A stretch of DNA of 64,000 nucleotides from Hyphomicrobium sp. (GTDB taxonomy: Bacteria > Pseudomonadota > Alphaproteobacteria > Rhizobiales > Hyphomicrobiaceae), in assembly GCF_020852195.1 (NCBI RefSeq), contig NZ_JADZBI010000188.1:1-64000 (forward strand), given 5' to 3'. Below, in pieces: positions 30,065 to 38,300 of the stretch. The first letter of the stretch is position 1, and each line of letters starts with the position of its first letter. The position numbers and the translations under genes were made by a program. The notes under the pieces are model-generated. The model saw only the letters and a list, made by a program, of their open reading frames with translations. It had not been told where the DNA came from and made no database searches.

Positions 30065-31585
30065 ATGAGCAACGCCATCTCTCTCGAGCTTCTGGCCTTC
30101 AACCTGAAGCTCCTCGGACGCCAGCGCCGCAAGAACCTCTTGATCAGCGCCGGGCGGCCCGAAGACAAGAAGCGCATGCTGCCCGCCATCCGGCGCATTC
30201 TCACGCTCGACGTCGAGCTCTATGCGACGCCGGGTACGTACCGCTTTTTCAAGGAGCACGGCATCGGCAGCACCGAGATCCACAAGATCACGGACGGGCG
30301 CTCGCCCAACATCCTCTCTTTCCTCAAGGCCAACCGCTTCGATCTCGTCATCAACGTGCTGACGGGCGACGAGGACTACGACGAAAGCTCGGACGCCAGA
30401 CTCATCCGCAAGCTCTCGATCGAGAACGGCATCCCGCTGATCACCGACGCCGACGTCGGCATCGCCACGCTCGAGCAGATCATCATCGACGCCGAGCGCG
30501 GCACTTACCGCTACCGTCTCGCCGACGACAGCGAGCCGTGGAACCTGCGCCTGCGCTTCCTCGCGGCGGCCGAGCGTCTCGGCGGTCTTGCCAACCATCA
30601 TGCGCACTTCGACAAGGCCTACCTCATCACGCACGAGAACCTGCGCTTGAGCCAGGTCGACATGCAGAAGAAGTGGGAGCTCTATCGCTACCTCAAGGAG
30701 AACTACACGCACGACGATCTCGTCGAGCGCATCAGCCGCGGCCTCGAGGCCATGATCCAGCAGGGGGTGACCTACTGCCGGACGATGGTGGATGCCGACA
30801 GCACCGTGGGGCTGCTGCCTATCAAGGCGGCGCTGGAGGTCAAGAAGCGCTACGCGGACCGCATCCAGTTCGAGGTCGGCGTGCAGCCGCTGCAGGGCGT
30901 GCTCGATCCCGCGTCCTTCACCCAGTATGCGGAAGCGTGCGAGTTGGCCGACTACTGCGGAGGGCTTCCCTCGCGCGACCGGCCGACGCCCGAGAAGCAT
31001 CTCGACGTCGTCCTGTCGCTGGCCAAGAAGCTCGGCAAGCCGGTCGACGTGCACATCGACCAGGAGAACAATCCGCTCGAGGACGAGACCGAGCTCCTGG
31101 CCGAGAAGACCATCGAGCACGGGATGCAGGGACGCGTGTTCGGCGTGCACGCCATCTCGCTCTCGGCCAAGGAGGATCGCGAGCAGGACCGGATCATCGA
31201 GAAGGTCAAGCAGGCGGACCTCGGCATCATCATCTGCCCGTCGGCGGCGCTCAGCATGAAGCAATTGCCGATGACGGCGCCGCTGCACAACTCCATCGCC
31301 CCGTTCGTCAAGCTCAGAGATGCTGGCGTGCGCACCTACCTCGGCGTTGACAATGTGCATGACCTCTTCATGCCGATGGTGGACGGCGACATCTGGACCG
31401 AGTGCCGGATGCTGATGGAGACGACCCGCTTCTACGACATCGACGCCGTGGCCGAGTGGGCCTGCCAGAAGCCGATCCAGGCCAAGGTGCAGCCGGCGGC
31501 GGCCGTTACCCCGATCGCGGCGGCACGGGCCGGCGAGAAGGAGCCGGCAAAGAAGCGCGCGGCAGGCGGGCGGCGCGGGCGTTGA
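30065..31585 (+). CDS. MGS-like domain fused to cytosine-deaminase-like amidohydrolase
   Basis: N-term KNLLISAGRPEDKKRMLPAIRRILTLDVELYATPGTYRFFKEHG...DGRSPNILSFLKANRFDLVINVLTGDEDYDESSDARLIRKLSIENGIPLITDADVGIATLEQII (MGS-like); C-term NHHAHFDKAYL, VHIDQENN, VHAISLS, DNVHDLFMPM (amidohydrolase metal/active-site motifs). Confidence 0.8.
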   Translation: MSNAISLELLAFNLKLLGRQRRKNLLISAGRPEDKKRMLPAIRRILTLDVELYATPGTYRFFKEHGIGSTEIHKITDGRSPNILSFLKANRFDLVINVLTGDEDYDESSDARLIRKLSIENGIPLITDADVGIATLEQIIIDAERGTYRYRLADDSEPWNLRLRFLAAAERLGGLANHHAHFDKAYLITHENLRLSQVDMQKKWELYRYLKENYTHDDLVERISRGLEAMIQQGVTYCRTMVDADSTVGLLPIKAALEVKKRYADRIQFEVGVQPLQGVLDPASFTQYAEACELADYCGGLPSRDRPTPEKHLDVVLSLAKKLGKPVDVHIDQENNPLEDETELLAEKTIEHGMQGRVFGVHAISLSAKEDREQDRIIEKVKQADLGIIICPSAALSMKQLPMTAPLHNSIAPFVKLRDAGVRTYLGVDNVHDLFMPMVDGDIWTECRMLMETTRFYDIDAVAEWACQKPIQAKVQPAAAVTPIAAARAGEKEPAKKRAAGGRRGR

Positions 31586-31731: not shown

Positions 31732-31772
31732 GGCATGACGGAGCCTTGGGCTAACCGAGTTACTCCAGCCTC

Positions 31773-31807
31773 AACGTCATCCCGGCGCACGCCGGGATCC
31801 ACGCAAG
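31773..31807 (-). repeat. REP-like palindromic element, family B single unit
   Basis: AACGTCATCCCGGCGCACGCCGGGATCCACGCAAG. Confidence 0.75.
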
Positions 31808-34038: not shown

Positions 34039-34165
34039 CGCGCGCTTGCAGCGTTTGATTGATCATTCGATTTTTATTCCATCTTGCGCGAAGAATATCT
34101 TGCTCGACCGGTTCCGAAAATCGCCATGATCCGTGTTTAGCCGGCACAATATAGGAGCTTGTGCC

Positions 34166-35218
34166 ATGGTCGCAGATATGAACTTCAAGCGTCGGGTTCA
34201 CGAAAGAGATCCCGAAGCAGAGACGTCTCACGTGGCCGCCTCGCGCAGCGAGCCCGCCAGCGTGGAGATCGGGCTCAACGCGGCCATCGTCGCCGTGATC
34301 GACGACGAGCCGGTGGTGCTCGTGATCCGCGGCGAGCGCGAGGCCGTCGACGGGCTGCCGTTTGGCCCCTTCTCTCCGGTCGCGCATCGGACGCTCGAGA
34401 GCGGCCTGCGCACCTGGGTCGAGGAGCAGACCGGGCTCGGCCTCGGCTATGTCGAGCAGCTCTACACATTCGGAGACCGGGGACGTCACGCCGAGCCGGG
34501 CGATGCCGCGCCGCACGTGGTCTCGATCGGCTACCTCGCGCTCACCGAGACGGGCCACGCGCGCGACCTGCAGCACGGCTCGTGGCGGAGCTGGTACCAG
34601 TATTTCCCGTGGGAGGACTGGCGGAAGGGCAAGCCCGAAATTCTCGCGGCCGAGATCGAGCCGCGCCTCAGGCAGTGGGCGCAGAGCCCCAGCTCGCGCT
34701 CGGCACCCGTGCGTCCGGTGCCAAGAGAAGACCGCATCCGTATCTGCTTCGGCCTCGACGGCGGCGCATGGGACGAGGAGAAGGTCCTCGATCGTTTCGA
34801 GCTGCTTTACGAGGCCGGCCTCGTCGAGGAGGCACGCCGGGACGGGCGGGAGGCTGCATCGGCGTGGGGAAGCGCCTTGCCGCGGCTTGGCGCGCCGATG
34901 CAGTTTGACCACCGGCGCATTCTCGCGACCGCCATCGGTCGCGTGCGCGCGAAGATCAAGTATCGGCCGGTGATCTTCGAGCTGATGCCGGACGACTTCA
35001 CGCTGTTCGAGCTGCAGAAGACGGTGGAGGCGATCCTCGGGCCGCATCTGCACAAGCAGAACTTCCGTCGCCTCGTCGAGAGCGCGGGGCTGGTCGAGCC
35101 CACGGGCGAGGTCAAGACGCAGACTGGCGGACGGCCGGCGAAGCTGTTCCGGTTCCGCCGCGAGGTGGTGCTCGAGCGGCCGGCGCCGGGCGTGCGCGTC
35201 AAAGCCGTTCGTGTTTGA
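34166..35218 (+). CDS. nrtR: NrtR family Nudix-related transcriptional regulator of NAD biosynthesis
   Basis: N-terminal Nudix-like domain with degenerate Nudix box (LESGLRTWVEEQTGLG), C-terminal winged-helix region (FELMPDDFTLFELQKTVEAILGPHLHKQNFRRLVESAGLVEPTGEVKTQTGGRPAKLFRFRREV); adjacent to nadABC. Confidence 0.88.
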   Translation: MVADMNFKRRVHERDPEAETSHVAASRSEPASVEIGLNAAIVAVIDDEPVVLVIRGEREAVDGLPFGPFSPVAHRTLESGLRTWVEEQTGLGLGYVEQLYTFGDRGRHAEPGDAAPHVVSIGYLALTETGHARDLQHGSWRSWYQYFPWEDWRKGKPEILAAEIEPRLRQWAQSPSSRSAPVRPVPREDRIRICFGLDGGAWDEEKVLDRFELLYEAGLVEEARRDGREAASAWGSALPRLGAPMQFDHRRILATAIGRVRAKIKYRPVIFELMPDDFTLFELQKTVEAILGPHLHKQNFRRLVESAGLVEPTGEVKTQTGGRPAKLFRFRREVVLERPAPGVRVKAVRV

Positions 35219-35323
35219 ATTGTCCGCGAACGGTGCGCGGGGCCTTTGCAGCGGAGCTGCAATTTATTTCGGCATTGGCCTGGAAAATCGTGCGCGCCTC
35301 AACTAGATTTGTTTCAGGCGTTC

Positions 35324-35342
35324 TATGCTCCGCTAGAGCATA
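35324..35342. promoter_or_regulatory. Predicted NrtR-type operator 1
   Basis: TATGCTC-CGCTA-GAGCATA perfect inverted repeat, 7-bp arms and 5-bp spacer. Confidence 0.6.
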
Positions 35343-35413
35343 ATAAGGGGAACCATAGAGGTCCAAGAGCGTAGGAGTGACTGGCCTAAGGCGGCCGGTA
35401 TTTTTCAGGGCCC

Positions 35414-35438
35414 TCATATACTCAAGTCGAGTATATGA
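35414..35438. promoter_or_regulatory. Predicted NrtR-type operator 2
   Basis: TCATATACTC-AAGTC-GAGTATATGA perfect 10-bp-arm inverted repeat, ends 17 nt before the nadA ATG. Confidence 0.75.
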
Positions 35439-35455
35439 TAGCTTGGAGGTGAAAA

Positions 35456-36547
35456 ATGGCGCTTCGTTCAGCCCATTCGGCGCTTGCGCTTTCCCAGCCC
35501 CAGCCGGCGGCTGCCTGCGCGCCGCGTGCGCGTACGGTAGATCCCGTCACGCCGCCGCTGGCGTTCACGCCGGCGCTCAAGCGGGAGATGGCGCCGCTCT
35601 ACGAGCGCGTGAAGCATGTGGTGACGCCGATGGAGTGGGTACACTACGCGCCCCTCGTCAAGGCGATCAACGAGCTCAAGGCGAAGCGCAATGCCGTTAT
35701 CCTGGCGCACAACTACATGACGCCGGAGATCTTCCATGGCGTGGGCGATTTCCGCGGCGATAGCCTGCAGCTCGCCAAGGAGGCGGCGCGGGTCGAGGCG
35801 CAGGTCATCGTGCAGGCCGGCGTGCACTTCATGGCCGAGACCTCGAAGCTCCTCTCCCCCGACAAGACGGTGTTGATCCCGGATCCGCTCGCGGGCTGCT
35901 CGCTTGCATCCTCGATCACGCCCGAGGACGTGCGCGCATTGCGCGCCGCCTATCCCGGCGTGCCGATCGTCACCTACGTCAACACCAGCGCGGCGGTGAA
36001 GGCCGAGTGCGATATCTGCTGCACGTCTTCGAACGCGGTGAAGATCGTCGAGAGCCTGGGCGTGCCGCGTGTGCTGCTGATCCCGGATCAGTACCTCGCC
36101 AAGTACGTGCAGACCAAGACGAAGGTCGAGATCATCGCCTGGAAGGGGGCGTGCGAGGTGCACGAGCGCTTCACGGGCGAAGAGATGGAGACCATGCGTG
36201 CGGCCGAGCCCGGCCTCAAGATCATCGCGCATCCCGAGTGCCCGCCGGACGTCATCCAGGCGTCGGACTTCACGGGCTCGACGGCGGCCATGATCGACTG
36301 GGTGAAGACCAAGCGGCCGGCCAAGGTCATGCTCGTCACCGAGTGCTCGATGGCATCGAACGTCGCCGCCGAGGCGCCGGACGTCGAGTTCATCCGGCCG
36401 TGCAACCTGTGCCCGCACATGAAGCGCATCAGCCTCGAGAAGATCTACGAGGCGCTGCTCTACAACCGCTACGAGGTGACGGTCGATCCGACCGTCGCGG
36501 CCAAGGCGCGCCGCGCCGTCGAGCACATGGTCGAGGCGTCGGCCTGA
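35456..36547 (+). CDS. nadA: Quinolinate synthase NadA
   Basis: [32 protein letters not shown]...[21 protein letters not shown]...[19 protein letters not shown]. Confidence 0.97.
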
Positions 36548-36629
36548 CGCATGAGAGGCGCGCGGACGTGAGCGCCCGCGCGTTCCTTTTTTGGGTGCTT
36601 CCATCGGAAGCAGTTGGGGAGGTCCGCTG

Positions 36630-38300
36630 ATGGACTTCGATAGCACCCGTCTCGCCCGGGGCTTCGCCGATCCTGCCGACGTGCTCGGATCCGGCGACAT
36701 CGTGATTATCGGCGCCGGGCTCGCCGGTCTGTTCACGGCCCTGCGGCTCGCGCCGCTGCCGGTCACGGTGGTGGCGGCGGCTCCGCTCGGCGAAGGCTCC
36801 TCAAGCGTATGGGCCCAGGGCGGCATCGCGGCCGCCGTGGGCGAGGGCGATGCGCCGGAGCAGCACGCGGCCGACACCATCGCCGCGGGCGGCGGCATCG
36901 TCGATGCGCACGTTGCGGAGGTCGTCGCGTCGGAAGCGCCGGCGCGCATCGCCGATCTCCTGCGCTACGGAGTGCCGTTCGACCGTGACCTCGCCGGGCA
37001 TTTCGTGCTCTCGCGCGAGGCGGCCCATTCCAAGCCGCGCGTCGTGCGCGTATCGGGCGACCGCGCCGGCGCTGCCATCATGCAGTCCCTGATCGCGGCG
37101 GTGAAGCAGACGCCATCCATCCGCGTGCTTGACGGCTACGAGGCGCTGGATCTCATTCTTGAGGCGGGATCGGGCGGCAGCGACCGCGTCTCCGGCGTGC
37201 GGCTCGTGCGCACCGAGGCGAAGGGGACCGGAACGTTCGACTTCATGCCGGCGAGCGCCGTCGTGCTGGCCACGGGCGGCGCGGGCGCGCTCTACTCCGT
37301 CACCACCAATCCGATCTATGCGCGTGGCGAGGCGATCGCGTTTGCCGCGCGCGCGGGCGCGCTGATCGCGGACGCGGAGTTCGTGCAGTTCCATCCGACG
37401 GCCATCGACGCCGGGATCGATCCGGCGCCGCTTGCGTCGGAGGCGTTGCGCGGCGAGGGCGCGACGCTGATCAACGGCGCCGGCGCGCGCTTTATGCTTG
37501 CGCTCGATGAACGGGGCGAGCTTGCGGCCCGCGACATCGTCGCGCGCGGCGTGTTCGCGGAGATCGCGGCGGGGCGCGGCGCGTTCCTCGATTGCCGCGA
37601 TGCGATCGGCGCCGCCTTTCCGCAGGCGTTTCCGACCGTCTATGCGCATTGCCGCGCGGCGGGCATCGATCCCGTCACGCAGCCGATTCCGGTGGCGCCG
37701 GCCGCGCACTACCACATGGGTGGCGTGGCGACCGACCTCTTCGGACGCACGTCGCTCGAGGGGCTGTGGGCCGTGGGCGAGGTGGCCTCGACCGGGCTGC
37801 ACGGGGCCAACCGGCTGGCGTCCAACTCGCTGCTCGAAGCCGTGGTGCTTGGCGCGCGCGCGGCCGACGACATCGGCCGCCTGGTCACGAGCGAGATGGC
37901 ACATCCCACTGCCCGGACCTACCGCACGGGGCCGGAGCGGCCCATCGATGCCGCGCGGCGCGCGAGCCTCGTCGGCCGTCTCAGGCAGACGATGAGCGTG
38001 CACGTGGGCGTGGTGCGCAGCGGCGCCGGGCTCGTACAGGCGCTCACGTTTTTGCGCGAGATCGGCGAGGAGGCGGGCTGCGACCGCATGGTCGTCAACA
38101 TGGCGCTGGCGGCGGAGATCATCACCGGGTCGGCGCTCCTGCGCACGGAAAGCCGCGGCGCGCACTACCGCTCGGACTTTCCGGAGCCCGAGGCCGCGCT
38201 CCAGCATCGCAGCGCTGTCACGCTGCGTGAGATCCGCGCCATCGGCACGCGCAGCCGCAAGTCCGCGGCGCCCCGCTGTTGCGAGGAGCTTTCCACGTGA
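36630..38300 (+). CDS. nadB: L-aspartate oxidase
   Basis: DIVIIGAGLAGLFTALRL; SSVWAQGGIAAAVGEGDAPEQHAADTIAAGGGI; HYHMGGVATDLFGRTSLEGLWAVGEVASTGLHGANRLASNSLLE. Confidence 0.97.
   Translation: MDFDSTRLARGFADPADVLGSGDIVIIGAGLAGLFTALRLAPLPVTVVAAAPLGEGSSSVWAQGGIAAAVGEGDAPEQHAADTIAAGGGIVDAHVAEVVASEAPARIADLLRYGVPFDRDLAGHFVLSREAAHSKPRVVRVSGDRAGAAIMQSLIAAVKQTPSIRVLDGYEALDLILEAGSGGSDRVSGVRLVRTEAKGTGTFDFMPASAVVLATGGAGALYSVTTNPIYARGEAIAFAARAGALIADAEFVQFHPTAIDAGIDPAPLASEALRGEGATLINGAGARFMLALDERGELAARDIVARGVFAEIAAGRGAFLDCRDAIGAAFPQAFPTVYAHCRAAGIDPVTQPIPVAPAAHYHMGGVATDLFGRTSLEGLWAVGEVASTGLHGANRLASNSLLEAVVLGARAADDIGRLVTSEMAHPTARTYRTGPERPIDAARRASLVGRLRQTMSVHVGVVRSGAGLVQALTFLREIGEEAGCDRMVVNMALAAEIITGSALLRTESRGAHYRSDFPEPEAALQHRSAVTLREIRAIGTRSRKSAAPRCCEELST

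Follow-up and report, generated by a model that had tools for sequence, protein, structure and literature searches.

An MGS–amidohydrolase fusion of Hyphomicrobium and other bacteria as a predicted single-gene replacement of pyrB and pyrC

We describe a gene of Hyphomicrobium sp. that joins an MGS-like domain to an amidohydrolase-superfamily (AHS) domain and that has, in our judgement, quite likely spread horizontally and taken, as a single gene, the place of the pyrB–pyrC pair of de novo pyrimidine synthesis. This prediction follows from the mutual exclusion of the fusion and pyrC, the absence of PyrB, the retention of CarB and PyrD, and a pyrB–pyrC locus that is occupied or interrupted by the fusion gene. 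The AHS domain very probably carries out the dihydroorotase step, as pyrC exclusion, synteny and pathway context indicate; the MGS domain is a likely, less firmly supported, candidate for the transcarbamoylation that precedes it.

The window, that is, the whole stretch of 64,000 nucleotides analysed here, carries the fusion gene at 30065..31585 on the forward strand, as do all features of the window given below. Its translation, family assignment and conservation define 506 codons and a stop, with an ATG at 30065 and GAGG just 5' of it. The Pfam scan of the 506-aa protein returned above cut-off solely MGS (PF02142, aa 38-127, E=2e-15, 57.1 bits against a cut-off of 24.1) and Amidohydro_1 (PF01979, aa 174-461, E=4.6e-12), and aa 161-468 (30545..31468) match the NCBIfam equivalog family NF005365/PRK06886 with 445.1 bits against a cut-off of 340, a family still named 'hypothetical protein' in NCBIfam in June 2026. 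PDB sequence searches led from the N-terminal domain to CPS/CarB and from the C-terminal domain to AtzC/CodA. The AlphaFold model of the whole protein (pLDDT 76.6) retrieved CodA/AtzC in Foldseek (E=2e-16), and that of aa 1-160 (pLDDT 80.2) retrieved CarB, the MGS domain of CPS1, MgsA and PurH (best E=3e-7). The original prediction, made from the sequence alone, of an MGS-like domain joined to a CodA/AtzC-type amidohydrolase is therefore supported by Pfam, NCBIfam and PDB searches alike, and the structural comparison it proposed, with the CarB MGS domain and with CodA, gave the expected matches. The C-terminal tail (aa 473-506, 31481..31582), modelled at pLDDT 30-35, poorly conserved and unaligned between genera, is presumably disordered. 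The fusion is not a chance joining, because the frame keeps about 58-96% identity across genera and phyla; in an alignment of 23 diverse fusions, some 127 residues are invariant. A search of the open-access literature returned no paper that deals with this fusion or with the lack of a dihydroorotase in the bacteria concerned.

The full fusion was found in seven of the eight genomes of Hyphomicrobium, at 91-96% identity to the window copy, the eighth being G004, which is 88% complete. At 58-82% identity, the named scan also detected it in Rhodomicrobium, Bauldia MAGs and other alphaproteobacterial MAGs, as well as in Beggiatoaceae/Thioploca, Chromatiaceae, Planctomycetes, Myxococcales MAGs and a Terriglobia MAG, so that Myxococcota and Acidobacteriota are among the phyla that carry it. 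Confinement to a single clade had been put forward as a mark of novelty; the architecture is instead sparse yet present in at least four phyla. The tree of the AHS domain departs from that of the species, with, for example, a myxococcal MAG placed amid Alphaproteobacteria, which suggests that the fusion has spread by horizontal transfer.

In a family sample of 99 Hyphomicrobiaceae genomes, where pyrC was scored by TIGR00857 at E<=1e-20, the fusion occurred in eight (G000, G001, G002, G003, G005, G006, G007 and G020). None of these had pyrC, which was present in 90 of the 91 others; the single exception is G004, the incomplete congener mentioned above, with neither gene. The order sample (298 genomes) gave 0/7 fusion genomes with pyrC and 285/291 for the remainder, the two genes never occurring together; six genomes had neither, four of which are 61-76% complete. 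Fisher's test gave p ~5e-11 in each sample, a statistic that ignores kinship in samples that are phylogenetically clustered. Since this value is not corrected for phylogeny, repeated swaps between fusion and pyrC are the better argument: in genus g307, G580 has the fusion without pyrC and its congener G559 has pyrC, and in family f113, genus g256 shows the swap when set against g296, g310 and g319. Outside the order, pyrC exceeded the cut-off in no fusion genome other than G746. Class II pyrC was found in 0/27 fusion or standalone genomes, and the controls for the class I and class II searches scored 14/14 and 10/14, respectively. TIGR00857 also gave sub-cut-off matches of ~160-190 bits in three genomes (G744, G747 and G754). 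We take these matches to be dihydropyrimidinase-type proteins and not PyrC, an interpretation drawn from the DHO_dh-family match close by in G747 and G754.

PyrB (TIGR00670) was over cut-off in none of 33 fusion or AHS-only genomes, with controls at 14/14. Two sub-threshold transcarbamylases that were scanned are of the ornithine type (TIGR00658, 380-388 bits), and others, inspected by eye, have the ornithine-type motif and a gene position beside hslO; on these features, the transcarbamylases examined in fusion genomes are ArgF. The complete genome of G006 contains one transcarbamylase-family match in all. PyrD was detected in 30/30 genomes, and CarB is present in the fusion genomes. As PyrC and PyrB are absent, and CarB and PyrD kept, the gap spans the two successive reactions that lead from carbamoyl phosphate to dihydroorotate; the fusion offers two candidate domains. 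The link to CarB drawn by the original prediction was thus apt, and the evidence leads to pyrimidine metabolism. Separately, G438 from the order sample (99% complete) has neither pyrC (E<=1e-60) nor the fusion; it encodes PyrD and two MGS proteins, of CarB and PurH size, and may have replaced its dihydroorotase in yet another way or be an auxotroph.

Gene order in relatives L136 and L137, the latter from the same genus as the fusion-bearing G580, is pyrB-pyrC-plsY-dprA-topA. The MAG locus L032 reads fusion-plsY-dprA-topA, all on one strand, with the fusion in the place of pyrB-pyrC, and in another MAG (L057) the fusion is adjacent to and divergent from plsY-dprA-topA. In L034, from one large and possibly mixed Acidobacteriota MAG, a pyrR-pyrB-pyrC operon is interrupted by a segment that comprises the fusion plus three further genes. 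There, pyrB ends at aa 203, with most of the Asp-binding domain lost, and pyrC lacks its 5' end but is otherwise nearly whole; the genome yielded no other PyrB above the cut-off. The three genes carried along (L034:9447-12802) encode a 383-aa protein that by eye is TIR/SEFIR-like, a 377-aa membrane protein and a methyltransferase-like protein, none with a Pfam match over cut-off, and the segment may be a defence-like mobile element that replaces the genes it damages. In most other loci, the window included, the fusion stands alone among other genes. Downstream in the window and close to the fusion, a Nudix/NrtR-like regulator with nadA- and nadB-like genes behind it (34133-38300, ORF translations read by eye) appears to form an NAD synthesis cluster, with no functional link to the fusion seen. 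A palindromic stretch in the intergenic region that follows the fusion gene (31770-31801, CGTCATCCCGGCGCACGCCGGGATCC) resembles a dispersed repeat. When the neighbours at 34 loci were clustered all against all, no partner gene proved to be conserved beside the fusion, and the idea of an operon partner that provides the missing step was discarded on this basis.

According to the proposed replacement, the MGS domain would use its conserved phosphate pocket to bind carbamoyl phosphate, would carbamoylate aspartate (the PyrB step) and would hand carbamoyl-aspartate to the AHS domain, which would act as a metal-dependent dihydroorotase interconverting N-carbamoyl-L-aspartate and L-dihydroorotate. 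One protein would then lead from carbamoyl phosphate and aspartate to dihydroorotate. We lean, with some reserve, towards this complete version, in which a single polypeptide makes dihydroorotate and the MGS domain is a new carbamoyltransferase passing its intermediate to a dihydroorotase of the CodA branch.

The MGS-fold domain (aa 23-145, 30131..30499) is CarB-like in Pfam, in Foldseek and in its match to CarB 946-1058 in the PDB. K35 (30167..30169) aligns with CarB K954, the phosphate-binding turn T55-P-G57-T58 (30227..30238) with T974-H-G976-T977, K74 (30284..30286) with K993, and N97 with N1015. All CarB-type pocket residues (K, T-x-G-T, K and N) are accordingly present, and K35, T55, G57, T58, K74 and N97 are invariant across the 23 fusions. 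N97 opens the loop N97-x-LTG-xxx-YD-xxx-D110 (30353..30394), in which L99, T100, G101, Y105, D106 and D110 are also invariant; it is ~3 residues longer than its CarB counterpart, and aa 100-108 have a pLDDT below 50 in the full model and of 77 in the domain model. Catalytic methylglyoxal synthase (MgsA) is recognized by an HD-xx-K start and a GGD containing the catalytic Asp. Neither occurs in any of the 23 fusions, which have ISAG...K and no GGD, and the MGS motif pattern originally proposed therefore holds as CarB-like, though not as that of a catalytic methylglyoxal synthase. MGS pockets bind small phosphates, 2-phosphoglycolate among them (1egh and 1s8a in the Foldseek matches), and ligands of this type resemble carbamoyl phosphate. 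To our knowledge, the MGS fold has no transferase precedent, and the Pfam scan of the fusion detected no OTCace_N or OTCace domain above cut-off.

These observations bear on the strongest alternative, in which the AHS domain is a dihydroorotase only, the MGS domain is regulatory (UMP/IMP-type), and the PyrB step is provided by another protein or a promiscuous ArgF. It would produce the same exclusion with pyrC and suits MGS residues that match the nucleotide pocket of CarB. It also has a parallel in CAD, whose MGS domain directly precedes the dihydroorotase domain. Moreover, the MGS domain evolves faster than the AHS domain across the fusions, the same trend as in CarB. A regulatory domain would fit this lower conservation as well; the rate comparison, with CarB as the yardstick, did not tell a catalytic from a regulatory role. 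The AHS-only genomes described below count against the replacement reading. We nevertheless consider a dihydroorotase-only role rather unlikely, as PyrB is also gone from every fusion genome, the complete genome G006 offers a single transcarbamylase-family match, no partner gene travels with the fusion, and in L034 it is pyrB that was halved and pyrC that stayed nearly whole. The same absence of a travelling gene, loss of PyrB wherever the fusion is present and halved pyrB in L034, along with the phosphate pocket, are what point to transcarbamoylation by the MGS domain.

The AHS domain keeps the metal site of its relatives. HAHFDK (30599..30616) contributes the metal ligands H179 and H181 and includes K184, with H179, H181 and D183 invariant in fusions and standalone proteins; the original prediction had named this motif, which binds zinc, and its start is corrected here to aa 179. 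Alignment with CodA identifies a third metal ligand, H330 (CodA H214), in HIDQ (31052..31063), as well as the invariant H362 (31148..31150, CodA H246) and the invariant catalytic D429 (31349..31351, CodA D313). The universal retention of H179, H181, H330, H362 and D429 leads one to expect a metal hydrolase. Two other positions differ. Q333 replaces the catalytic CodA E217, so that the HxxE Glu is Gln (HIDQ or HVDQ) in all fusions, in the AHS-only proteins of Pasteurellaceae and in the paralogue L021, and the substrate-recognizing Q156 of CodA is Leu276, invariant in the fusions. Both changes argue against the deamination of an aromatic ring; the Glu-to-Gln change would fit cyclic amide chemistry, in which the proton shuttle of aromatic deamination is not needed. 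The original prediction, a deaminase or hydrolase gated by a nucleotide effector and directed at a nucleobase or a similar ring, could draw on cytosine deaminase and AtzC as the closest solved structures and on the CarB-like MGS pocket. Given the Gln found family-wide and the Leu found in all fusions, and since it leaves both the pyrC/pyrB exclusion and the occupied pyrB–pyrC locus unexplained, we rejected nucleobase deamination on active-site residues and genome context and regard this reading as highly improbable. The PyrC models add no canonical assignment: TIGR00857 (class I) is absent from the NCBIfam families reported for the fusion protein at E up to 1, TIGR00856 (class II) has no match in the window's own genome, and no dihydroorotase is among the matches listed in the PDB sequence and fold searches with the fusion.

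It is just as improbable that the fusion genomes are pyrimidine auxotrophs in which the fusion has an unrelated job and the exclusion is a coincidence of lineage, given three or more separate swaps within a single order, the further cases in several other phyla, the retention of CarB and PyrD, the fusion at the pyrB–pyrC locus, and the growth of Hyphomicrobium and Rhodomicrobium on mineral media. The phylogenetic clustering of the samples speaks for this reading, as does the occurrence of AHS-only proteins in Pasteurellaceae, the family of the pyrimidine auxotroph H. influenzae (PMC13328217).

This AHS-only form (L139-L143, in genomes G397, G431, G149, G050 and G345, whose assignment to Pasteurellaceae we infer) is ~327 aa long, ~36% identical to the fusion and bears the HVDQ signature. 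PyrB is over cut-off in none of the six AHS-only genomes, namely these five and G754, which has no MGS domain whatsoever. In the Pasteurellaceae genomes, PyrD is present and CarB is absent from three of the five; in G431, the AHS gene lies ~1.5 kb from pyrE. In AHS-only genomes, the AHS domain alone thus serves some purpose that lies outside the fusion reading, one idea for Pasteurellaceae being the salvage of carbamoyl-aspartate or dihydroorotate. Another MGS-less relative, L056 from a metagenome genome without any MGS domain, falls inside the fusion clade (99/98 with L055) and adjoins pyrD and a pyrF-pyrE fusion. The latter (L056:10186-11871) encodes the decarboxylase followed by the phosphoribosyltransferase, the PyrE part being recognized by similarity to PyrE of Pasteurellaceae. 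Finally, an AHS-only paralogue with HVDQ and ~34% identity (L021, G037:C11:11884-12858) occurs in a genome with canonical pyrC and is a third, unstudied branch of the AHS subfamily.

Few pathways of life are as conserved as the early part of pyrimidine synthesis, which, with ATCase and CAD, is also a textbook example of allosteric control. If the replacement is true, a non-homologous, one-gene substitute for pyrB–pyrC across phyla would constitute a new enzyme family, the MGS fold would gain a new chemistry, and apparent pyrB/pyrC gaps would be explained in many genomes that metabolic models would call auxotrophs. If the PyrC role alone holds, the AHS domain would still represent a new class of dihydroorotase beyond those known. 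The claim of a wholly new kind of enzyme rests on the MGS transferase activity that we infer.

Each part of the fusion has relatives among known systems. CodA and AtzC are closest to aa 161-468 in solved fold and sequence and share the HxH, His, His and Asp set; the fusion differs in having HxxQ for HxxE, Leu for Q156, an N-terminal MGS domain and a shorter AHS domain. The same region falls within NF005365/PRK06886, whose best-scoring members seen here are the Pasteurellaceae AHS-only proteins, each a 'hypothetical protein' without MGS. The allosteric C-terminal MGS domain of CarB shares the fold and the pocket formed by K954, T974, G976, T977, K993 and N1015, whereas the fusion has the longer LTG-xxx-YD-xxx-D loop and an attached amidohydrolase. 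CAD consists of a CPSase with its MGS domain, then a dihydroorotase and then an ATCase. It places MGS immediately before an amidohydrolase-superfamily domain, as the fusion does, a likeness of domain order only, as the fusion has no CPSase or ATCase domain and its AHS domain is not of the CAD dihydroorotase type. Known dihydroorotases carry an HxHxR carboxylate-binding motif; the AHS domain, in contrast to PyrC, has HxHxDK, belongs to the CodA/AtzC branch and does not match the PyrC models, and the MGS domain has no detectable homology to PyrB. With the pair PyrB and PyrC (TIGR00670, TIGR00857/TIGR00856), the fusion nevertheless shares its pathway position, after CarB and ahead of PyrD, and in L032 also the chromosomal site in front of plsY-dprA-topA.
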